The notes beneath the pieces are model-generated. The model saw only the letters and a program-made list of their open reading frames with translations. It made no database searches and was not told where the DNA came from. Both the position numbers and the translations under genes were made by a program. From a virus, in IMG/VR virus record IMGVR_UViG_3300007539_000157, positions 1-27,304 of that record: DNA of 27,304 bases; one strand, written 5' to 3'. Of the stretch, positions 6,100 to 24,263 are shown piece after piece (position 1 is the stretch's first letter; each line of letters opens with the position of its first letter).

Positions 6100-6624
6100 A
6101 TGGGAGATTATTTTATAAGCGACCATCTAGCAGCCCTTCAGGAGATGGTAGGCTCAGGGCATAGCGCTACCGCAGACTCAGAAAGCTTCCTACCGCAAAT
6201 CATTTATGCAGCCGAGCGTCGAAGCGAGTTTAGAGCTAGATGGTCTGAGGCGCTAAAGTACTCCCCTATCGCTATCTGCATTGTTGATTTTGATGGCTGG
6301 TTCTTAGAAGTAAATCCAGCGGCATGTGATCTGTTTCAGCGTCCAGAACAGGAACTCCAGCAGCTTAGATGGCAAGATATAACGCATCCTGATGACATCG
6401 ATGGGGATGATCAAAAAGTGGATAAAATAATCAGTGGAGATGTTGAAAGCTATCGCATGATAAAGCGCTACATTATGCCTGATGGAAGTTACAAACCTGC
6501 TTTTCTATCTGTCTCTGCTTGTAGGGCGCAAAGAACAGGAAAGCGATATTTTATTAGTCAGATAATCGATTTAGATTGGTTCGGTGAAATTGTCGACAGG
6601 GCAAGGACACGCTATGCCTCATGA
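6100..6624 (+). CDS. PAS-domain protein
   Basis: A 174-residue protein. Residues about 50-160 form one PAS sensor domain: AICIVDFDGWFLEVNPAACD (59-78), LRWQDITHPDDIDGD (89-103), then EYRMIKRY-like and PDGSYKPAFLSVSAC (127-141) and a final RYFISQIIDL strand. PAS domains sense small ligands, redox state or light and normally drive attached enzymes or regulators, but no kinase, GGDEF/EAL or DNA-binding domain follows here. Residues 1-48 are helical and could act as a dimerising or signalling helix. ATG at 6100 has no strong ribosome binding site, and the gene overlaps the next one by 11 bases. A PAS protein in a phage virion cassette is unusual. It may be a sensor, a scaffold for protein contacts, or acquired host DNA. 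The fold call is strong; the role is unknown. Confidence 0.8.
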   Translation: MGDYFISDHLAALQEMVGSGHSATADSESFLPQIIYAAERRSEFRARWSEALKYSPIAICIVDFDGWFLEVNPAACDLFQRPEQELQQLRWQDITHPDDIDGDDQKVDKIISGDVESYRMIKRYIMPDGSYKPAFLSVSACRAQRTGKRYFISQIIDLDWFGEIVDRARTRYAS

Positions 6625-6844
6625 TTACGAGTATTACATAACTAAAGAGCTAGAGAGACAAACAGCCGTGGACGAGAAACTGAACGAAGAAATAAGCGAG
6701 CTACAGATTAAGCTAGCAAAGATTGAAACTGTGGCAAGTCGAGTTGAAAAGATTGAGTCAAACACAAGTAAGATTGCATGGCTAGTTATAACAGCAGTGA
6801 TTTTAGCCGTTTTAAAACTGGTGATAGAGACTAAGGGCATATAG
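6614..6844 (+). CDS. XhlA-like coiled-coil membrane protein
   Basis: A 76-residue protein with a heptad-type coiled coil at about 8-50 (ELERQTAVDEKLNEEISELQ onward) and one transmembrane helix at about 53-71 (IAWLVITAVILAVLKLVI). The IEKIESN-x-x-K-x-A-W boundary resembles the XhlA family, small membrane proteins associated with holin activity in lysis cassettes. ATG at 6614 is preferred over the in-frame GTG at 6584 because AAGGA (6603-6607) is well spaced before it. It overlaps the PAS gene by 11 bases and its stop overlaps the next GTG start. It lies about 17.5 kb from the endolysin and holin-like genes, so it may not be a lysis protein here; it could partner the PAS protein at the membrane. 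Confidence 0.7.
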   Translation: MPHDYEYYITKELERQTAVDEKLNEEISELQIKLAKIETVASRVEKIESNTSKIAWLVITAVILAVLKLVIETKGI

Positions 6845-11822: not shown

Positions 11823-12846
11823 GCAATTTGATTTTCTCCTTGGTGGTATCAACGATTCTTCAGGAGACCCTCTTAGTGGAGGAAAGGTTTATACTTATGA
11901 GGTAGGGACTACTACCAATAAGACAGCTTGGACAGAGCAAGATAAGTCAGTAGCAGCTACCAACCCCATTATCCTTGATGCTTCAGGACGGGCAGAAGCC
12001 TACGGCGAAGGCTCTTATAAAATCCAAATAGACGACGCTGATGATAATACTATAGTTACTTTTGATAATGTAAGCTTGTCTTCTGGAGACGGACTCGACA
12101 GTTACGCCTCCCTATCTGGGACTACTGCTTTAACTGGAGACCTTGAGGCCGACCCTGGTAGTTACTCGACCGGAGCTAGAGTCCTTAATCGTATGGGTTC
12201 AGGCAGTACGAACGGAGAGTCGGCTACTGTTAACTACAATACAACTGGAGCTGCTAACCTTACTATCCTTGATGGCTCTACGTCCTTACCTCCTGGTTCT
12301 TTATCGAGTGAGGAGTTCTTCATTACTGCTTATGAAGGTAGCGCAATGGATGTGATTACCTGCCCTACCCCTAGCGTTTTCTATCGTAAGAGTCTCAGTG
12401 CTGAGGTAACGAACACAACAGATGAAACTCAACTACTCTCGATAGGGCTCCCCGATTACGCTGTTAACTCTAGTAGAGGAATTAGAATCACCTACTTTGT
12501 TCGTCTTGAAAACGATACCGGAGGGACTAGCTCTATCGTTCTTAGGATTAAGGAGGTGGGAGGCTCAACCTTAGCAACTAGGACTGTATCAATAGATAAT
12601 GGAGGAGATGATATCTCTAAGCTTGTAATGGAAATCCTTCCTTATAACAATAGTGCGACTTCTCAAATCCTTTTTACTACTCACTATACTACAAACTCTT
12701 CAGTCACCTCTGTAGCCTCCCCTGGTCATACCCTTGATACTTTAGACTTTACTTCCTCTATTGACCTTGAACTTACTGCTGATCCTGCTACAGCCTCTAG
12801 TGACCTAACGGCTACCCTCTACCACGCAAGAGCGGAGCTGCTATAA
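11812..12846 (+). CDS. Tail fibre-like protein with common phage N-terminal domain
   Basis: A 344-residue protein. Residues 1-85 carry a widespread phage fibre N-terminal pattern: GDPLSGGKVYTYEVGTTTNK (18-37), NPIILDASGRAEAYGEGSYK (51-70) and a following strand ending TFDNV. This domain usually attaches a fibre to the tail. The remainder (about 95-344) is beta-rich, Ser/Thr/Asn-rich and shows no enzyme motif. It would be a receptor-contact or structural fibre. It overlaps the gp4-like gene by 11 bases and the gp10-like gene by one (TAATG), so it is translated with the neck proteins. Confidence 0.78.
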   Translation: MTAKQFDFLLGGINDSSGDPLSGGKVYTYEVGTTTNKTAWTEQDKSVAATNPIILDASGRAEAYGEGSYKIQIDDADDNTIVTFDNVSLSSGDGLDSYASLSGTTALTGDLEADPGSYSTGARVLNRMGSGSTNGESATVNYNTTGAANLTILDGSTSLPPGSLSSEEFFITAYEGSAMDVITCPTPSVFYRKSLSAEVTNTTDETQLLSIGLPDYAVNSSRGIRITYFVRLENDTGGTSSIVLRIKEVGGSTLATRTVSIDNGGDDISKLVMEILPYNNSATSQILFTTHYTTNSSVTSVASPGHTLDTLDFTSSIDLELTADPATASSDLTATLYHARAELL

Positions 12847-14423
12847 TGAAGACCGTTAAGGTTCCTTTAGGCTCTCCTGTCTACACAAATGTAGACGAGG
12901 TTGAACTTAAGGACTTCTCGCAAAAGATGGTCAATTGCTTCCTTGATGAGGCTGGTGCTGTAGTTAAGCGCCCTGGATATGAGCTTACTCTTAACCCTAC
13001 TGATTACGTCGGAACCTTTGACTATAATAGAGATGCTTACACTGGCGCTGGCTCAGATGGGGCAGCTCCTATCAATGATGGGATTCGTCACTTGTACTGG
13101 TGGCCTTATACCTCTCGACTCGCCGTCTGGACTCCTACCGAGATGCTGCTGCTATATAGGGACGGGGCTACTTACGATACTATTCGTCACCGCACCAACT
13201 ATACCACGAACTCTACTATGACTAGCGACGCTCCGTTTAGCTCTCCTTATCGGGTGTCGGCAGTTGGCAATGGAACAAACCTATTTTATTCCAACGGGGT
13301 AAACTGCTTTTATGATACTTTCCTCTATTCCGGCTCTACTAAGATAGGCGACTTTAGGTTCTTTCAATTCCTAAACGCTACAAGCCCCTCTAACTGGTTT
13401 GACTCTTCTCACGTAGCTTTCTTAGACGGCTATATTATAGCCAATGATCTCAACAGCCAAATCTTTAGATTCTCAGACAGTGACGGCTCCCTTCCTTCGG
13501 CTGGCGGCTATATCTCTTGGAACGCTAATGATTTCGCTCAAGCTGTAGGCCGTCCTGATTTACTAACTGCCCTTCATGTTTTTAGAAGAGAACTATTCCT
13601 GTTCGGAACTCACTCGGTAGAGATTTGGCAAAACGACGGAACCAATCCTTTCTCAAGGATAGACGGAGGGTTTATAGACACTGGCTGCATTGCTCCTTAT
13701 TCTATTGTCAACACCGACACTGGTATCTACTGGCTAAATCAAAACAAACGATTCGTCCGTTACGTTGATGGAAACCTTGAATACGTATCAGAAGACTACG
13801 ACAAGGAGATTCAGAAGCTATCTGTAGTATCTGATTGCTGGAGCTTTAGACTTGAACTAGCTGGTAAGGAGCTAATCATCTTTCAGTTTCCAGCTGAGAG
13901 TAGAACCCTTTGCCTTAATACGGACAATGACTCTTGGTCAGAATGGGGAGAGTATACCTCAGCGGGTAACTATAAAGTTATGCCTTTTACTGCCTTTGAG
14001 TACATCCCCGATTGGAGCCTCCGGTTAGTAGGAACCCAAGCGTCTAGCGACTTATATAACCTATCCTCAGAAGTCTACACCGACAACGGCTCCCCTATCC
14101 GCTTCTCTCAAACCTCAGGCCATATCAACTTTGGCACCACCAAGAACAAGCGCTCCCACGAGCTAAGGCTCATAATGAAAAGAGGTACTGATAACTCTCC
14201 AGTTACAGGCGGGAAGATGATGCTTAGGTATAAGGACAATGGCTCTAATACTTGGAGCAACGAAATAGAAATAGACCTAGGAGAGATAGGCGAAACAGAA
14301 CACGTAGTAAGGCTAAAACCAAGAGGCATCTACCGTACCCGCCAATATGAGATATACTCCGACTCCCCTATTCCAGTACTTCATATAGACGCAGAGGAGG
14401 ACATAGAGGTACTCGCTCGATGA
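12846..14423 (+). CDS. Tail hub / packaged-DNA stabilisation protein, P22 gp10-like
   Basis: A 525-residue neck protein expected to sit below the gp4-like ring and plug the head. The N-terminus has the MVNCFLDEAGAVVKRPGYEL pattern (29-48) seen in this family. A seven-bladed-type beta core follows, with repeated short W/F strands: VAFLDGYIIANDLNSQIFRF near 190, SWNANDFAQAVGRPDLLTAL near 225-244, FLFGTHSVEIWQNDG near 254 and FIDTGCIAPYS near 278. The LNTDNDSWSEWGEY segment near 360 is also typical. It starts at a TAATG overlap and ends in ATGA shared with the next gene. Together with the gp4-like protein it forms the P22-type neck module. No tail needle gene like gp26 is recognised. Confidence 0.85.
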   Translation: MKTVKVPLGSPVYTNVDEVELKDFSQKMVNCFLDEAGAVVKRPGYELTLNPTDYVGTFDYNRDAYTGAGSDGAAPINDGIRHLYWWPYTSRLAVWTPTEMLLLYRDGATYDTIRHRTNYTTNSTMTSDAPFSSPYRVSAVGNGTNLFYSNGVNCFYDTFLYSGSTKIGDFRFFQFLNATSPSNWFDSSHVAFLDGYIIANDLNSQIFRFSDSDGSLPSAGGYISWNANDFAQAVGRPDLLTALHVFRRELFLFGTHSVEIWQNDGTNPFSRIDGGFIDTGCIAPYSIVNTDTGIYWLNQNKRFVRYVDGNLEYVSEDYDKEIQKLSVVSDCWSFRLELAGKELIIFQFPAESRTLCLNTDNDSWSEWGEYTSAGNYKVMPFTAFEYIPDWSLRLVGTQASSDLYNLSSEVYTDNGSPIRFSQTSGHINFGTTKNKRSHELRLIMKRGTDNSPVTGGKMMLRYKDNGSNTWSNEIEIDLGEIGETEHVVRLKPRGIYRTRQYEIYSDSPIPVLHIDAEEDIEVLAR

Positions 14424-15028: not shown

Positions 15029-15571
15029 ATGGCTGATTTTCTAGAAAACCTAATCGGAGTATCTCTTGACTCTATTAAGCCTGTAGTATCCGCTGGTTTC
15101 GGGCTCTATGATGCTTACAACTCAGGACAACACCGAGATGATATAGCCTCTATCGTCCAGCAAAGAGAACAAGAAAAGTACGACAATGCAATGGCTAACC
15201 GAGAAGCCTACCTTAACCACCTTGCCAACTACGGACAAGGAGGAGGCGGAGGAGCTGGTGGAGACGGAGGCCACGGAGCAGCTGAAGCAGGACGAATAAG
15301 AGCCGGACAGAAAGGTCTCAAGGTCATGAAGAACCAAATGAAGAGAGGCCGTAAGTTCCTAAAGCCATATCGCCAAGCCGGAAAGGAAGTACTCCCCCAC
15401 CATACCGCAGCTAGTATTGCTGGTCTCCAAGGACTTACTAACCTAGCCTCCTTCTTCCAAACCCCAGAACAACAAGCAAAGTTTAACCAAACTAAACCAG
15501 CTCTCCAAATGGGAGCAGACTCTAAGATAGGCTCTATGTTGCCTAATCACATGCTACGGAGCGGTTACTAA
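15029..15571 (+). CDS. Probable small ejection (internal virion) protein
   Basis: A 180-residue protein. The N-terminus (MADFLENLIGVSLDSIKPVV) is amphipathic or weakly hydrophobic, then a charged helix, a glycine-rich linker (about 71-86, GQGGGGGAGGDGG), and a basic region (about 90-118). The AASIAGLQGLTNLASFFQTP segment is hydrophobic. It is the first of five linked genes ending in a 1797-residue protein, the size order and position typical of podovirus ejection proteins. These are packaged in the head and injected to form a channel or guide DNA. AAGGAG at 15017-15022 sets the start. No detectable enzyme motif. Confidence 0.62.
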   Translation: MADFLENLIGVSLDSIKPVVSAGFGLYDAYNSGQHRDDIASIVQQREQEKYDNAMANREAYLNHLANYGQGGGGGAGGDGGHGAAEAGRIRAGQKGLKVMKNQMKRGRKFLKPYRQAGKEVLPHHTAASIAGLQGLTNLASFFQTPEQQAKFNQTKPALQMGADSKIGSMLPNHMLRSGY

Positions 15572-16828
15572 ATGGCTCAACTAGGTGCTTCTCAACAGCT
15601 ATTGCTGACTCAGTTACTACAACAGAATCCTGCGTTGATTCCAGTAGTACTCCAGCGCCTACAACAACAGCAAGCTCAGCAAGCTCAAGCTCAACAACCC
15701 CGTCCTGGTAAGGCTATAGGTCAAGGACTACGGAAACTAGCTGACGGATACCTAGGCAAAGAAGCAGCAACTGAAGTAGTAAGCTCATCAGCTCCTGAAG
15801 TAGTAGGAAGCGCTCCTGGCAAGTTCGGCCTCCCAGGAAAGTTAATGAGTGATGGTACAGTTGCTACTAACTACTCCCACCTTGCTAGCTACGTTCCCCC
15901 TCTAGCAGCGGTAGCCTATGGAGGCAAAACAGCTTATGACTTTGCTAAAGGAGACAGGCTATCTACTCCTCAAAAGCTTGCAATGGCTCTCCCTACCGCT
16001 GGACTATCCTTAGTATCGGATAAGATTCAGGACGCTACTGGCCTCTCTCATAAGTCTACTAAGGACTACCAAAGAGAAAGGCTAGACAAAGTCAAAAAGA
16101 ACACTAAAGGTTGGGGCAAGATGCTGGAGCAAGGTAGAGCTACAGCTGAAGCTAATAATAACACCTGGCAAGACGGTAAGTACGCTGGCCAGAAATGGAG
16201 TTGGGATAAAGCTCTAGACTTAGCCAAGGAAGACCCCACTCACTTTCAAGGAGTACTAGGAAACGCAGAAGTCTTTGGCGATGATTACTTCTCCCTTAAC
16301 GACTCTCAACAGAAAGACCTAGTAAGTAGACTAATTAAAGAAGACGCATATGTAAGTGATAAAGGAGACATCCTTATCCACAAGGATAAACAAAATAGAG
16401 CTAGAGAACTCTTCTCAGAAGTAAGCTCAGGAGGAATAAAAGACAATGGCAGAGTCCCATCCCGTAAAGAGGAATTTGAAGAAGCTGGTATTATTTTTAA
16501 AGAGGCTCCCAAGGAAGATAGTCGAATGGCTACCAAGCCTGATAGCAGGGAGTCTAATCAACAGGTACGAATACAAGAGAGACCAAAACAAACATCAAGA
16601 GTAGATTTAAATAAAGCAGCTGAAAGAGGCGGCCTCACTCCTAACGTAGATGCAAACTGGGGAAGCTCAGGAACGAAGATTCCTAGAGCTAACAACAACC
16701 CCGTAGCCGACCGATACGGAGCAGAAGTAGCAGCCCAAGTAGCAGCCGCTCAAGCCTCAGGACGAAACGTAGGAACAGGAGGAGCTGGCTACGAATGGGA
16801 CGGTAAGAATTTTATAAGGAGAAGGTGA
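15572..16828 (+). CDS. Probable ejection protein, Gln-rich N-terminus
   Basis: A 418-residue protein beginning at the base after the previous stop. Residues 10-45 are strikingly Gln-rich (VLQRLQQQQAQQAQAQQ), residues about 105-150 include moderately hydrophobic segments (SYVPPLAAVAYGGKTAYDFA; KLAMALPTAGLSLV) that could touch membranes, and the rest is charged and helical with a polar, disordered C-terminus. No known fold is recognised. The position between two other virion-like genes and the mix of disorder and amphipathic helices fit an internal virion protein. Confidence 0.6.
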   Translation: MAQLGASQQLLLTQLLQQNPALIPVVLQRLQQQQAQQAQAQQPRPGKAIGQGLRKLADGYLGKEAATEVVSSSAPEVVGSAPGKFGLPGKLMSDGTVATNYSHLASYVPPLAAVAYGGKTAYDFAKGDRLSTPQKLAMALPTAGLSLVSDKIQDATGLSHKSTKDYQRERLDKVKKNTKGWGKMLEQGRATAEANNNTWQDGKYAGQKWSWDKALDLAKEDPTHFQGVLGNAEVFGDDYFSLNDSQQKDLVSRLIKEDAYVSDKGDILIHKDKQNRARELFSEVSSGGIKDNGRVPSRKEEFEEAGIIFKEAPKEDSRMATKPDSRESNQQVRIQERPKQTSRVDLNKAAERGGLTPNVDANWGSSGTKIPRANNNPVADRYGAEVAAQVAAAQASGRNVGTGGAGYEWDGKNFIRRR

Positions 16829-17949
16829 TGGCAAGACGAGCTGGTAACAGAATCCCGAAAGCGGGAAGGTTCAAGAGTAAGAGAGTAAGAAAAGGAGTAA
16901 ACCGTCTAGGCCGTATCCAAGATAGACTAGCTGACCCTGATAGAAACTTCAGCGATGAGAAGCGAGCCCGCCTTGAGACTCGAGTAGGAAGACTCCAAGA
17001 TAAGTTCGGTAGCAAGATTCAACGAAAGCAAAACAGGTTAGATGCTAGAGCCGACAAGCTCCAAGGACGGATAGACTCAGGTAATCTCTCTCCAAAAAGA
17101 ACAGGACTAATCCAATCAAGGCTTGATAGAGTTAACAAGAGAAACGATAGGCTCGGTACTATTAACACTCCTATAACTACTTCTAATCCTGATGATATTG
17201 ATACCTCTGTTGATACTGTAGAGGATGTCCCTGAGGTAGTAGCCCCTATCCTTACTCCTGAGGAAGAAGAGAAAGCTAGAAGAGACTACGCTGCTGAGAT
17301 AAGCAAGATAATGCAAGGACTCTTCCCTCAAACCGCTGTTACAGACGCTCAGCAATATATCCAGAACTCCCTACAACCAACCTTCGATTGGGAACAGGAG
17401 CAAGGAGAACGCGCCCTTGATAGGTACTACGCTGCTAAAGGCTTAACCGCCTCAGGAGCAGAAGCTGAACAGAATAGAAGATTCCAGAACGAGCTAGGAG
17501 CTACCTTTAGAGATAGAGCCTTAACGCTTGCTAGTGAAGATGCTGAACGTAGACAGAGAGCTGCCGACAGGTTCTACACAATGTTGAACAACGAAGCGGA
17601 TAGAGCCCAACGAGGTGAAGAGAACCAGTTTGATAACTACTTAAGGACGATGGAGCTACTAACAGCTCAGTCTCCTCTTCGCTATGGCTATGATGCAGCT
17701 GCTGCAACAGCTGACTTAGGTACTCAATACGGACGTGATGCTGCCGACATCATAGCTCAACTATACGCTAGACCCGCTCCTGCTACTGGCGGTGGTGGAG
17801 GTGGTGGAAGTATTCCTTATATACCTCCTATCCCACCTGCCCCTTCTACTACTACTGCTGACCTTATAGCTTCTCAAGGAGCGGCTACTACCGATTCTAA
17901 CCTTCTAGGTTCAGGAATGGATTTAATTAGTGGACTATTAGGACTATAA
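16828..17949 (+). CDS. Probable ejection protein, basic N-terminus
   Basis: A 373-residue protein starting at ATG 16828; an in-frame GTG three bases earlier is possible, but AAGGAG (16816-16821) is better spaced to the ATG. The start shares TGATG with the upstream stop. Residues 1-110 are very basic with repeats of the RLGRIQDRL/RVGRLQDKF/ARADKLQGRI type, likely a helical nucleic-acid or protein-binding region. Residues 135-310 form long alanine-rich helices (RALDRYYAAKGLTASGAEAE), similar in look to T7/P22-type internal virion proteins. A glycine linker (ATGGGGGGGS) and proline-rich segment precede a hydrophobic C-terminus (LLGSGMDLISGLLGL). Confidence 0.65.
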   Translation: MARRAGNRIPKAGRFKSKRVRKGVNRLGRIQDRLADPDRNFSDEKRARLETRVGRLQDKFGSKIQRKQNRLDARADKLQGRIDSGNLSPKRTGLIQSRLDRVNKRNDRLGTINTPITTSNPDDIDTSVDTVEDVPEVVAPILTPEEEEKARRDYAAEISKIMQGLFPQTAVTDAQQYIQNSLQPTFDWEQEQGERALDRYYAAKGLTASGAEAEQNRRFQNELGATFRDRALTLASEDAERRQRAADRFYTMLNNEADRAQRGEENQFDNYLRTMELLTAQSPLRYGYDAAAATADLGTQYGRDAADIIAQLYARPAPATGGGGGGGSIPYIPPIPPAPSTTTADLIASQGAATTDSNLLGSGMDLISGLLGL

Positions 17950-18869: not shown

Positions 18870-21800
18870 ATGAGTGATGATTTCAATCCTCAAGAAGTAG
18901 ACCGCATGATGGATCTAGAGAGCCGTATTGGTAGCGGTTACGACCCTTCTCCTCAAGAAATAGACTTCATGATGGGCTTTGAAGATAGGCTTTCTAGTCC
19001 AGCTCCTGAACCTAGTACGGACGTCAACATGGAATTTGGCAGAGCCGACCACGGGGATAGCTTTCTAGCTAATCGCGTTACGGAGCCTATATCTGAAGTT
19101 GTTAACGACTATATCAACGAGCCCCTCTCCAACATCGCTATGAATACCTGGGGCGGTCAAATGGCAGCTGGGGCAGCCTCTCAGATAGCTAAGCCTCTTG
19201 GGGGAGTAATGGAATGGGCGGGAGATACCGCAGCTGGTTTTGGCTGGGACGATAACCCTCTCCAACGTTACGGCGAGAACATAAGAGATAACTCTGATTT
19301 AGTAGCTCAAGTATCAAGAGATAGATTCGGAGCTGATGATAGCTTTGCAAAAGGATTAGCTTATGATGTGGGTTCTTCTACTATGGCTGCTCTACCTATC
19401 CTTGCCGCTGGTGCTATATCCGCTCCCGCTGCTTTGGCTTCTCCTCTTACCCTTGGTTACTTTGGGAGTACTAGCGCTGGTGATGAGTATGCAGAGTTAA
19501 GAGATGCTGGCTACGGGTACGAGGCAGCTACTGGCTTTGGTGGTCTCTACGGAGTGGGAACAGTTGCTCTTGAAAGACTCCCTGTAGGGAAGTTCCTAGA
19601 CCCTAGCATCTCCTCAGGAATCAAGAGAGTAGCAAAGACCGGAGTATCAGAAGGAATAGAAGAAGGCTCTCAAGCTGCAATGGATATAGCTTATGGAGTT
19701 GCCCTTAAGGACAGGGATATGCCTACTCTAGGTGAAGCCGCTAGAGAAATAGGCTACTCAGGACTCGTTGGTACTACCTCAGGTGGAATAATGGGAGGAG
19801 TTGGCCATGGGGTTAACTCAGTTCATAAGGCTAATATCCAAAGACAGTTTGCCCAACAAAGAGAAGTAGACGAGGAAACCTTTAACCAGATTACAAACAA
19901 AGTCCTTAACGACCCTAATGCTCAAAAGATAGTCAAGCAACCTACTGGCACTCAGACAGCCCCTCCTTCAGTAGACGACCAAATCAAAAGAGAGGGAGAT
20001 TATTCAAGACCTACTAAACCTATCGAGCCTGGAGACGTAGCTACAACAGTTGGTCTAGAACCTAACCCAGGAGAGGTTGAGTATAATCCTTACGATAGAA
20101 ATCCTAACCAAACCCCTGAAGAGGCGCTTGGGGATGTACCTCCTATTCCTGAAGATGGTGAGTTCTCTCAGATGGGAGACACTACCCCAAGTGATGCTCC
20201 TCCACCTCCCCCTGCTTTCGAAGCTCCACTCCCCAAATCGAGGGATTTTATATTCTCTAGAAAGACTGGAGCCATGTATTCAGAGGATTTAAACCCTAAG
20301 CTAAGAGACCATCTAGATGGGCTTATAGCTGGTTTCTATTTAAGTCCAGCGTCGGGAACTCAGTATTCTCCTAATACTTTAACTATTGGAACCTTTGACA
20401 AGCTCGCAGGGTACGAGACCTATTCATTGATAGATGGAGACCGCCCTCTCCATCCAGACTCTCGCTTTGCGATAGGCCGAGAGGATTATGAAAGTTATAC
20501 TTCAGCAAAAAGGATCATCAGTAAAATAGGCGATGAGTACAAATATGATAAGAGACCTACGGTTCAGGGAGTTCACCTTACAAGCTCAGCTAGCCTAACC
20601 TCTTCGGGTGTCCCGATGTCTGTAGTTATAGGTCTTAAGACAGGAGAATGGAGCCCCAAGAATCTTGCGGTAGCTAGTCATGAACTAGCTCATGCAGTAG
20701 ATGAATACCTCCTCCAAAAAAGTCCTGAGATTAGAGAAGCAATGCGTAAGGAATGGGAAGCGGCAAGAGATAATGCCTTAAAGAAGAAAACCATTGGCGA
20801 GGCCGATAGGCATCTAGGGGCTTTCTATATGGCAGAAGAGAAAAATAGAGAAGGGACAGGGAGAAAACCCCTTAAGATGTACAAAGGAACCAGATACTAT
20901 AATTACAGGTTCGGAGAGGAGTCTGGCTTTGACGAATGGGTAGCTAATCAAATAGCTGAATGGGCAATGAACCCTAATAATATTGCCGAGACGAAAGCCC
21001 AGAGGTTGATGAGAGATATAGGTCGATTCTTCCGCAAGATATGGGAGTCTTTTCAAAAGACCTTTCCTCAACAAGCCCCAACTCTTAGAGAGTGGTTAGA
21101 TGAGCATTTTGATAAAGCTGCCTACCGAGGTGTGGTTAGTAAGTCAAAACCTAAAGCAACTAAACCTATCGACCCTCTTGATGACCCTCTTGATGACCCT
21201 CTTGATGACCCTATAGACCCTATAGGGGCTCTCACTGCCCGCCTCCATTCAGAAGCAGGGGTAGACATGATGTTCCAACATTGGCCAGCTCTCCTAGCCA
21301 AGAACGCCTACCAAGGATACAAAGCTACTAGCAAGATGGTAACTGACGCCTTAAGGCCAAAGGACAAGTCTTTATCTACTGAGGCTCCTGATTACAGAGA
21401 CGACGCGGAGAGGCTCCTTAGTGGAGAGATATTCGGCACTGAGAATAAAGTCCTTGGAAAAGCAAGACAAAGGATAACGTTCGGCAAGACCTTAGCTGAG
21501 AAGTCTCCGCTCTATAGAAGAGTGTATGAAGCGATGCTGAAGCTCTTTGATATCCAGCAAGTAAACGTAGCAGAAGCAGCTGAGTCACTAGCTCCTTATT
21601 CTACCCACTCAACCGAAGGTAAGGCCAGAGTCAACAAAGCCTTAATGACTCAAAGGATAGCTAGCGAACACGGGCTTCATTACTCAGAGTCTAAGCAAAG
21701 CTTGATGAAAAACCTTGGCCTCCTTGAAGAAGACGTCGCTGCCTATCAAGCAGTAAGAAAGACAATGATTCACTTCACTGAGAAGATAAGAGAAGCTCTT

Positions 21801-24263
21801 AAAGCAGATGTCCCTAGGTTTATACAGAAGAGCGTTAACGGAGACTTTGAAGTAGAGGCTGATGCTCTAACCCTGGAGAAGTACCACCAACGAGTAGATG
21901 CTCTAGCTGATGAGCTAGCTGCTGGTTACTACGTTCCGGCTACAAGGTTCGGGAAGCTAATAGTTCAAGTAGATGACTACGTTGACAAGTCGGCTCCTTA
22001 TGGCGAACAGGACAAGAAAGGTTGGTTCTCTCTCCATGAGACAGAAGCAGAGCGGCAAGCTACTATTAAGATGTTGAGCGAACAGGGATACACCAAGAAG
22101 CAAATAGTCTCTGATACCCTTAAGGACACAAATGTAGAAGGCATTGATATGTTGCCTACCGATATAATTGAGAGAGCTAGAGACCTAGGTATAGTTCCTG
22201 AGGTTGGCGAAGAAGACCTGATGGTTACAGTAGATGTCAAGAAGCTAGATGAGCCTACTGGATTTAGAGGTAAGCTAACTAAAGCTAAGTTAGTCCCTGG
22301 TTTCACTCAGAACCTTGAGAGAGCTATCAACGACTATGCTCTAGGAGCTAGTTACTGGCACGCTAATAAGATGCAAGCCAAAGAGTTTCGTATGGCGCTT
22401 GATGATATCAAGTTCGGAGGGAACGTTAAAATAGGCTCTATCTTTACTGAAGGTAAGGACGCCAAGGGCAGGAAGAGAGCTATTCAAAAGCTCTCAGTAG
22501 ATAACAAGAAGATTATCAATAAGAACCTCTACGACAGAGCCAAGGAGGACATAGAGTATGTAAGAAAAGGAACCGAAGAGTTTCAACAGCTCCGTCAGTT
22601 TATGGCTATGTGGTTCTTATCTCGTCCTGTTACTGCTCTTGTTAACGGAACCCAGACTTTTACGATGACGCTTCCTGAGGCCATCCATCACCTAGGAGCT
22701 AGAAAAGGAGCTAAAGCAGCTGGAGTCGGATTCTTAAGGCTTACTAATCTTCAGAAAAAAAAGCTAAGCAAGGAGCAACTAAGCCAAGCGCAGCAAGAAC
22801 TATCAGATGGTTTAGACTTAGCAGTTAAAGAAGGTCTTGTATCCGCTGAAGCTCTTAAGGCAATGACAGGACAGGCAGCTGGTAAAAGGAAACTAGGTAA
22901 AATCTCTAGCAAGGTTCCTATCCTTGGTGGTAAGGACTTAGCTGATGCCCCTCTTCTACTCTTCTCAGAAACAGAAAAGCTCAACCGGATGGTGGCTTTT
23001 GCTATTGGCTTTGAGGTAGCTAATAAGAAGAAGTTAAAAGGAGCCGAGCGTCAGAAGTTTGCTGAAGACTTCGTAAGAGAGACTCAGTTTGATTACTCAA
23101 AAGCTAACCGCCCTCCCATTAGTAGAGGCTATGCTGCTCCTTTATTTGCTTTTAGATTGTTCCCTTTCTTTCAGCTCCGTTGGCTCCGTAATCGACTAAG
23201 CGATAAGGACTACAAAGCGGTAGGAACTCACCTAGCAATGCAGCTACTCCTCGGTGGTATTACCGCTATGCCTCTTATTAAAGACCCGTTAAAGCTTCTA
23301 GAGATGAGTGGGTTAAATCCTAAGGCGCTAATAAGAGAGTTCCTTGGTAGCTTCTCCGATAGTGAAGGCTTAGAGGATATGCTTATTTACGGACTCGCTG
23401 GAGTAGGAACCTTAATGGATGAGGTAGAAAGCCTTAATATAATCCCAGGAGCCGGTATCAAACCAGAAGACATTCCTTTCTGGGACACTATTAAGGATAC
23501 CTTTAAAGCTGCTAATATATCCTCTTCTTTGGCTGCTCCTGAGTTAGCTCCTGATATCGAGTACGGTATTGGGGCTGCTCTGATAAAGACTATCCTAGGT
23601 TCCCTTTCTGCTTTCGGTACAAGCCAAGCAAGATATCAGTATTACCTTGATAGCGGCCTTCCTCCTGAGATAGCTAGGGAAGTTCTCCATCCTCCTATTC
23701 TTCATAAAGGCTTAGAGACTAACCGATGGGCTAGAGAAGGAGAGTTAAGGATGGCCTCTGGAACTCTTAAGAAAGAGCTATCTCCCGTTGAGCAATTGTT
23801 TGGCTATCTTGGTTTTAACCACCTAGACAGAGCTAAGTTCTACGAGCAACGCCACGGCAAGCGTCTTACTGGAGACCGAAGTAGAGATAATGATAATATG
23901 AATAAGAAGCTTACTAATTCTATCTTTGACTACATGAGGTACTCTAAGATGGGAGACAAGAAACGAGCAGACGCTGCTTTCTCTAGAGCCGAGAAAGTCC
24001 TTAGTAAAGTAAGAGAAGACAAGCAGCTACTAAGTGAAGTACTAAGGGGAGAGAACCCTCTTCAGCTATCCCCAGAAGCAGCTCGCGCTCTTACTAACTA
24101 CTCAGAGCCTCACCAAGCCTCTATAAAGCGCTCTCTCAAGCACCTGATTGGCCAATACCAAGACCCTTATTATGTAGAAGACCTACCTAAGAAAGCCCGT
24201 CCTGAAGCTCACAGGGTCGTTACGGACGTTACTGGCAAACCTACCCCTTACGTACCAAGATAG
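18870..24263 (+). CDS. Giant ejection protein, polyvalent type, with zincin-like motif
   Basis: A 1797-residue protein. Residues 1-45 hold two copies of a QEVDRMMDLESRI/QEIDFMMGFEDRL unit. Residues about 90-330 are Gly/Ala-rich with hydrophobic segments (MAALPILAAGAISAPAALAS) and a GVSEGIEEGSQ motif common in phage polyvalent proteins. A Pro-rich linker (345-460) precedes a zincin-like region: HELAH at 604-608 and a candidate third ligand E689 in GFDEWVANQ. A DPLD repeat (768-783) leads to long helices. Residues about 1245-1480 (FLSRPVTALVNGTQTF; FDYSKANRPP near 1407) resemble the conserved helical regions (LPD38-type) of large polyvalent phage proteins. It is expected to be packaged and injected, with the protease or peptidoglycan-linked activity unproven. 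T7 gp16 is an analogue in size and position, not by visible homology. Confidence 0.78.
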   Translation: MSDDFNPQEVDRMMDLESRIGSGYDPSPQEIDFMMGFEDRLSSPAPEPSTDVNMEFGRADHGDSFLANRVTEPISEVVNDYINEPLSNIAMNTWGGQMAAGAASQIAKPLGGVMEWAGDTAAGFGWDDNPLQRYGENIRDNSDLVAQVSRDRFGADDSFAKGLAYDVGSSTMAALPILAAGAISAPAALASPLTLGYFGSTSAGDEYAELRDAGYGYEAATGFGGLYGVGTVALERLPVGKFLDPSISSGIKRVAKTGVSEGIEEGSQAAMDIAYGVALKDRDMPTLGEAAREIGYSGLVGTTSGGIMGGVGHGVNSVHKANIQRQFAQQREVDEETFNQITNKVLNDPNAQKIVKQPTGTQTAPPSVDDQIKREGDYSRPTKPIEPGDVATTVGLEPNPGEVEYNPYDRNPNQTPEEALGDVPPIPEDGEFSQMGDTTPSDAPPPPPAFEAPLPKSRDFIFSRKTGAMYSEDLNPKLRDHLDGLIAGFYLSPASGTQYSPNTLTIGTFDKLAGYETYSLIDGDRPLHPDSRFAIGREDYESYTSAKRIISKIGDEYKYDKRPTVQGVHLTSSASLTSSGVPMSVVIGLKTGEWSPKNLAVASHELAHAVDEYLLQKSPEIREAMRKEWEAARDNALKKKTIGEADRHLGAFYMAEEKNREGTGRKPLKMYKGTRYYNYRFGEESGFDEWVANQIAEWAMNPNNIAETKAQRLMRDIGRFFRKIWESFQKTFPQQAPTLREWLDEHFDKAAYRGVVSKSKPKATKPIDPLDDPLDDPLDDPIDPIGALTARLHSEAGVDMMFQHWPALLAKNAYQGYKATSKMVTDALRPKDKSLSTEAPDYRDDAERLLSGEIFGTENKVLGKARQRITFGKTLAEKSPLYRRVYEAMLKLFDIQQVNVAEAAESLAPYSTHSTEGKARVNKALMTQRIASEHGLHYSESKQSLMKNLGLLEEDVAAYQAVRKTMIHFTEKIREALKADVPRFIQKSVNGDFEVEADALTLEKYHQRVDALADELAAGYYVPATRFGKLIVQVDDYVDKSAPYGEQDKKGWFSLHETEAERQATIKMLSEQGYTKKQIVSDTLKDTNVEGIDMLPTDIIERARDLGIVPEVGEEDLMVTVDVKKLDEPTGFRGKLTKAKLVPGFTQNLERAINDYALGASYWHANKMQAKEFRMALDDIKFGGNVKIGSIFTEGKDAKGRKRAIQKLSVDNKKIINKNLYDRAKEDIEYVRKGTEEFQQLRQFMAMWFLSRPVTALVNGTQTFTMTLPEAIHHLGARKGAKAAGVGFLRLTNLQKKKLSKEQLSQAQQELSDGLDLAVKEGLVSAEALKAMTGQAAGKRKLGKISSKVPILGGKDLADAPLLLFSETEKLNRMVAFAIGFEVANKKKLKGAERQKFAEDFVRETQFDYSKANRPPISRGYAAPLFAFRLFPFFQLRWLRNRLSDKDYKAVGTHLAMQLLLGGITAMPLIKDPLKLLEMSGLNPKALIREFLGSFSDSEGLEDMLIYGLAGVGTLMDEVESLNIIPGAGIKPEDIPFWDTIKDTFKAANISSSLAAPELAPDIEYGIGAALIKTILGSLSAFGTSQARYQYYLDSGLPPEIAREVLHPPILHKGLETNRWAREGELRMASGTLKKELSPVEQLFGYLGFNHLDRAKFYEQRHGKRLTGDRSRDNDNMNKKLTNSIFDYMRYSKMGDKKRADAAFSRAEKVLSKVREDKQLLSEVLRGENPLQLSPEAARALTNYSEPHQASIKRSLKHLIGQYQDPYYVEDLPKKARPEAHRVVTDVTGKPTPYVPR
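21171..21218 (+). repeat. 12-bp coding repeats (DPLD linker)
   Basis: GACCCTCTTGAT occurs three times in a row from 21171, then a degenerate unit GACCCTATAGAC. It encodes DPLDDPLDDPLDDPID and joins the zincin-like part to the helical part of the giant protein. Near-identical DNA copies suggest recent slippage expansion, so length may vary among relatives. Confidence 0.85.

Follow-up and report, generated by a model that had tools for sequence, protein, structure and literature searches.

The window, by which we mean the whole 27,304-base IMG/VR record IMGVR_UViG_3300007539_000157, encodes a giant protein whose middle part is a well conserved cassette of the gluzincin metallopeptidase type, with a predicted catalytic activity. 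We propose, with a little more confidence than doubt, that this giant protein is a virion ejection protein acting as a carrier with a payload slot, and that, once delivered, the protease would act, most probably against a host protein. The cassette belongs to a family: a profile extended stepwise from this region recovers the same domain in about 35 other giant phage proteins.

Genomic context and layout of the giant protein

The genes of the window follow each other in the order TerL, portal, MCP (PHROG 334), a cement-like protein, the head closure Hc3, a PHROG 598-like protein, three more proteins, the giant gene, an endolysin/peptidase-like gene and a RusA-like gene. The window comes from an uncultured short-tailed phage, and its gene order is that of a podovirus of the P22/Bcep22 type, with the giant gene as the last of a P22/Bcep22-type ejection module. 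The order TerL, portal, MCP, Hc3, ejection-like genes and giant gene is kept in the sibling phage L019, and the synteny of TerL, portal, MCP, Hc3 and the upstream ejection-block genes shows that the giant gene occupies the same slot in the siblings. The DNA-ejection-like and head-closure neighbours support the placement of the giant protein among the ejection proteins, as suggested in the preliminary description. Among the structural genes, a short ORF (6584-6844) weakly resembles PHROG 1193 'hemolysin' (E 3e-4).

The giant ORF starts with ATG and has no internal stop; the ORF scan and translation returned the 1797 residues, the HELAH motif and E689 exactly where they had been described before. 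PHROG 11358 covers residues 1008-1479 (E 2.4e-25). The chain contains one enzyme-like domain, beside the tail-700 module and the N-terminal domain, and a second enzyme was not found with Pfam or NCBIfam. The features considered here are collected in Table 1.

Table 1. Positions in the window of the giant gene, its parts and its upstream neighbours (residue numbers are those of the giant protein)
Feature	Position	Strand	Basis
Head closure Hc3	12846..14423	+	PHROG 578, E 1e-40
DNA-ejection-like protein, upstream of the giant gene in the same module	15029..15571	+	PHROG 598 'DNA ejection', E 6e-6; syntenic homologue in L019
Conserved ejection-block protein	16825..17949	+	Same-place homologues in L019, L020, L022 and L027
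Giant ejection-slot protein, 1797 aa	18870..24263	+	ORF scan, translation; PHROG 11358; NCBIfam tail-700
N-terminal domain, residues 94-331, common to sibling phages	19149..19862	+	Sibling HMM; hydropathy
Zincin metallopeptidase-like cassette, about residues 525-787	20442..21230	+	Iterated profile family; AF2 of family representative
HELAH, residues 604-608 (putative metal-binding H604 and H608, putative general base E605; count for these three)	20679..20693	+	29/29 members
Y676, 13 residues before E689; possible transition-state stabiliser	20895..20897	+	27/29 members
E689, putative third metal ligand on the 'glutamate helix'	20934..20936	+	29/29 members
Tandem 12-nt repeat coding for a (PLDD)n linker, between zincin and C-terminal module	21171..21212	+	TRF: 3.5 copies, 100% matches
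C-terminal module, residues about 841-1681; tail-700/PLxRFG core 1020-1478 (21927-23303)	21390..23912	+	NF032893; blastp to siblings, F116/8P/Mel-JY34

A family of zincin cassettes in giant phage proteins

Searches with the whole giant protein gave no match in viral or genome contigs and, for phages, none at E 1e-5. Viral contigs scanned for the zincin by itself, with either the window sequence or alignment A1 as query, gave no match, and neither did a zincin search of four prophage-bearing genomes, a scan that had no positive to validate it. Relatives were reached from the MCP relatives in IMG/VR, which led to sibling phages, and then through the C-terminal module, whose alignment as query retrieved 80 viral and 18 genomic loci. 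A weak tblastn match pointed to the 1894-aa protein XAI96480 of Microcystis phage Mel-JY34, which aligns with the window protein in two colinear blocks, one over the zincin (560-760, E 2e-7) and one over the C-terminal part (972-1530, E 3e-16); ATB52660 of Vibrio phage VS-ABTNL-3 is colinear with them as well and makes the third member. The profile made from these three proteins brought in 12 further zincin members at once, rising to 21, and a second scan seeded by three better-conserved members gave 36 distinct sequences, not counting the final iteration, which drifted.

For several members (L148, L150-L161) no tail-700 module was detected in the rest of the giant protein, which suggests that the zincin domain is mobile between carriers. 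Two other zincin giants, L069:5489-12343 (+) and L061:5933-12343 (+), have a cell-wall hydrolase (PF07486) or transglycosylase (SLT) domain and so, unlike the window protein, a second enzyme in the chain.

HELAH is the sole HExxH of the giant protein, and since an HExxH arose by chance in 3.1% of 5,000 shuffled copies of this protein, the motif alone is weak evidence and it is the conservation across the family that decides. The alignment on which the conservation counts are based (A11) comprises 29 distinct proteins, in all of which H604, E605, H608 and E689 are invariant, while A692 is kept in 28 and Y676 in 27. E689 lies within GFDEWVANQ, and the family pattern reads HE(F/L/M)GH ... Y ... 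(S/G)FEEW(F)AEQ. The conservation of HELAH, on which the reading had been staked beforehand, therefore holds, and the joint conservation of HExxH and E689 supports the earlier view that this giant is a zincin-bearing phage protein, probably of the polyvalent type. The cassette shows the gluzincin arrangement, an HExxH followed by a third-ligand glutamate on the next core helix, both kept in the homologues. The window matches no named Pfam metallopeptidase family at the Pfam gathering score, and the other members give only sub-threshold Pfam matches, for example to Peptidase_M78, M50B and SprT-like. A sequence-profile search of the PDB gave marginal matches only, mostly to HExxH peptidases.

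In an earlier set of 21 rows, E689 was present in all and HExxH in 20, the exception being L047:4181-10777 (+), a relative that has lost the HExxH and kept the glutamate helix and which is possibly a dead copy.

Predicted structure of the cassette

In the AF2 model with the window as query (pLDDT 56), only two helices were predicted with confidence, that of HExxH (596-613) and that of the glutamate (683-700, pLDDT about 90), and the model was too poor to serve as query in a structure search. The model of the family representative L058, made from 29 rows, reached pLDDT 78.7 and pTM 0.72 and contains an N-terminal helix, three strands, the HExxH helix and the glutamate helix, that is a zincin core. 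The gluzincin core fold is thus predicted for L058, and since the model of the window protein is poor outside the active-site helices, its fold is transferred from a relative of 19% identity. The structural check proposed in the preliminary description is in this way borne out in the family model, where the four residues sit on two core helices, but not beyond these helices in the model of the window itself.

In the Foldseek comparison of the L058 model with the PDB the top row was 4jix, a metallopeptidase zymogen (E 0.12, probability 0.90), and none of the matches was individually significant. Re-alignment with VIA-align returned nearly only zincin metallohydrolases, mostly peptidases; the best Z, 8.2, is modest by itself. 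Five matches to a viral structure library pass E 1e-3, among them a MuF-like protein and, at E 3e-6, a protein named for a 'large polyvalent protein associated domain'; the viral matches, too, are for the most part zincins. It is the consistency of the match list, together with the conserved metal ligands, that supports the zincin fold.

The same lists contain an alpha-ketoglutarate-dependent HExxH domain (8s5f, Foldseek) and YbeY-type folds (VIA-align), which could indicate that the cassette is not a peptidase; it would then be an HExxH metallo-domain with another activity, resembling that of a hydroxylase or an RNase, or a zinc domain with a structural role only. L047, which keeps the remainder of the domain without HExxH, and the N4 vRNAP structure paper, which assigns no activity to the HExxH domain of that protein (PMC12633501), point in the same direction. 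We nevertheless find this quite improbable, given that an HExxH, a glutamate helix and a nearly invariant tyrosine before the glutamate make up the arrangement of gluzincin peptidases, and that the structural neighbours are mostly peptidases, those from phages including annotated M34, SprT and zincin proteases.

The carrier and its occurrence with and without the zincin

An HMM built only from the N-termini of the siblings L026 and L022 matches the N-terminal domain of the window protein (E 2.3e-7), and hydropathy places one clear hydrophobic stretch inside it (residues 167-196, 19368-19457). The 'membrane-like segments' described earlier are therefore to be read in the singular. A weak match to the virion RNA polymerase PHROG 2206 covers residues 96-363 (E 0.007); no polymerase domain was matched in Pfam or NCBIfam.

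The C-terminal module scores 113.4 bits with NCBIfam tail-700/PLxRFG (NF032893), above the curated cut-off of 100 bits, and is common to F116, 8P, Y7, Mel-JY34 and others. Its earlier description as LPD38-like helices has to be given up: the window has no match to Pfam LPD38 (PF18857), whereas JC1 gp69, taken as positive control, gives 119 bits. Nor did hhalign match the tail-700 alignment to the C-terminus of the JC1 protein. JC1 gp69 is a giant DarB-like protein with an LPD38 C-terminus, for which 51 unique peptides were recovered from purified virions (PMC9144972). As its C-terminus is not tail-700, we dropped it as a virion-proven relative, and it supports only the class. ATB52660 (L038:6406-11778, +) is annotated as 'putative DNA methylase', although Pfam finds no methylase domain in it; the name probably came via the tail-700 module common to DarB-like proteins.

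The linker after the zincin is encoded by 3.5 perfect copies of the unit GACCCTCTTGAT, in agreement with the slippage-prone linker noticed before; a change in copy number of this 12-nt unit would stay in frame and shift the linker length by 4 residues. The (PLDD)n linker is not conserved among the aligned zincin-family members.

The giant proteins found in the same slot of the sibling phages share the C-terminal part with the window (blastp E 4e-13 to 4e-6) and have no HExxH. L026 and L022 agree with the window protein at either end, as seen from the N-terminal HMM match and the C-terminal module, and have a proline-rich linker in the middle. L019, the closest sibling by MCP (64%), has the C-terminal module in common with the window and carries a short linker, and in L020:5741-10711 (+) a ParB-like domain (PHROG 1033, E 5e-4) replaces the zincin. 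Since the siblings lack or replace the cassette, the carrier appears to work without it, and the protease is unlikely to be needed for packaging or ejection. A payload acting in trans fits this distribution, and that siblings built on the same scaffold lack the cassette speaks somewhat in favour of such an action.

The distribution also bears on self-processing, in which the zincin would cut the chain it belongs to, either inside the head or once ejected, and part a membrane-associated N-terminus from the C-terminal module. This idea is the older one and just as much a published proposal; it is the main role suggested for the MPTase domains of polyvalent proteins, with the processed DdrB of phage P1 as the cited case (Iyer et al. 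2017, PMC5512222), and the position of the zincin between two conserved parts, followed by a flexible repeat linker, would suit it. We hold it to be rather unlikely here, because the zincin is missing from siblings that have the N-terminal part, the C-terminal part or both, the linker differs between members, the chain has no other recognisable enzyme to release, and the N4 vRNAP, which also has an MPTase domain, is packaged uncut (PMC5512222). Our first choice is action on a host protein after delivery, taken by itself with a little less than even confidence; self-processing comes second, with clearly lower confidence.

Comparison with known systems

The closest counterparts of the window protein are XAI96480 of Mel-JY34, annotated 'hypothetical protein', and ATB52660 of VS-ABTNL-3, which have the zincin and tail-700 colinear in the same gene slot, with HEFGH/HEMGH and FEE(F/Y) conserved; their zincins are 22-28% identical to that of the window, and the N-termini are not detectably related. 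Pseudomonas phage F116 p60 is likewise a giant podovirus protein with a C-terminal tail-700 above the curated cut-off. Unlike the window protein, which carries the zincin cassette only, it contains LPD23, an ADP-ribosyltransferase (ART-PolyVal) and a different putative metallopeptidase (DUF6782, below cut-off).

Twelve MPTase clades have been described for polyvalent proteins (Iyer et al. 2017, PMC5512222), with which the window cassette shares the HExxH and glutamate helix, the three-stranded sheet and N-terminal helix as predicted for L058, and the occurrence in giant phage proteins near late genes. Plasmid ArdC, of the polyvalent class, has a gluzincin domain as well, its structure having been solved, but it combines the zincin with an ArdC-N ssDNA-binding domain and is conjugative, not of phage (PMC7213743). 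Because the metal ligand of ArdC can be mutated with the conjugation phenotype kept, protease activity being dispensable for it (PMC7213743), a conserved metal site need not mean that the protease drives the phenotype.

N4 gp50, which is itself ejected, resembles the window protein in layout (PMC12633501): the N-terminus is membrane-like, there is an HExxH domain, and the C-terminus is large and helical. It differs in having an RNA polymerase domain, and its C-terminal module has no sequence homology to that of the window. This layout, and the HExxH kept in 9/9 schitovirus vRNAPs examined, would be expected if the zincin domain were only a part of the packaging and ejection machinery, like C1 of the N4 vRNAP, with its activity irrelevant. 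Such a role is highly improbable in our view: the profile comparison of the C-terminal module with N4 vRNAP C2 detected no sequence homology (hhalign probability under 1%), siblings manage without the domain, and the invariant general base E605 argues for catalysis. As the zincins of the N4 type resemble that of the window at the motif level only in the profile comparison, we regard the likeness to N4 as one of design and not of membership. Among these vRNAPs, that of Vibrio phage 1.245.O (L032:4324-15264, +) has two HExxH sites (HELDH, HELSH), and the other eight have one each, seven sequences being partial.

Proposed mechanism and significance

Giant proteins of this class are presumed to be delivered into the host along with the phage DNA, and we infer injection and a host target for the cassette. 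The carrier would consist of the N-terminal domain with its hydrophobic stretch and the helical tail-700/PLxRFG C-terminus, and the slot in the middle would hold a swappable cassette, here of the gluzincin metallopeptidase type. In this cassette H604, H608 and E689 would bind the metal, E605 would be the general base and Y676 could stabilise the transition state. The giant protein would belong to the packaged contents of the head and be ejected before the DNA or together with it, a reading that fits its position in the ejection block, the hydrophobic N-terminal domain, tail-700 and the wall-enzyme domains of two relatives, L069 and L061, which are expected for a passage through the envelope. 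Its protease would then act after delivery, the most likely substrate being a host protein of the envelope or cytoplasm. A more specific version, in which the injected effector cuts a particular host defence or envelope protein within the first minutes of infection and the slot is a plug-in site for effectors swapped on a common carrier (protease, ParB-like nuclease or nothing), is in our opinion unlikely in this full form.

The polyvalent MPTase theme is already known (Iyer et al. 2017), and for protease-bearing giants of phages, roles as early effectors or in self-cutting were predicted in 2017 (Iyer et al. 2017, PMC5512222). What is added is a conserved zincin clade in tail-700 proteins that has no Pfam name, being set apart from Pfam models only, and the comparison of giant proteins with and without zincin in the same slot. 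Phages that have this carrier in common and are related in their heads and ejection genes, some with the protease and some without, offer a clean natural comparison that bears on the choice between effector and self-cutting. Mel-JY34 and VS-ABTNL-3 have deposited complete genomes and recorded hosts, and this question could be tested there.
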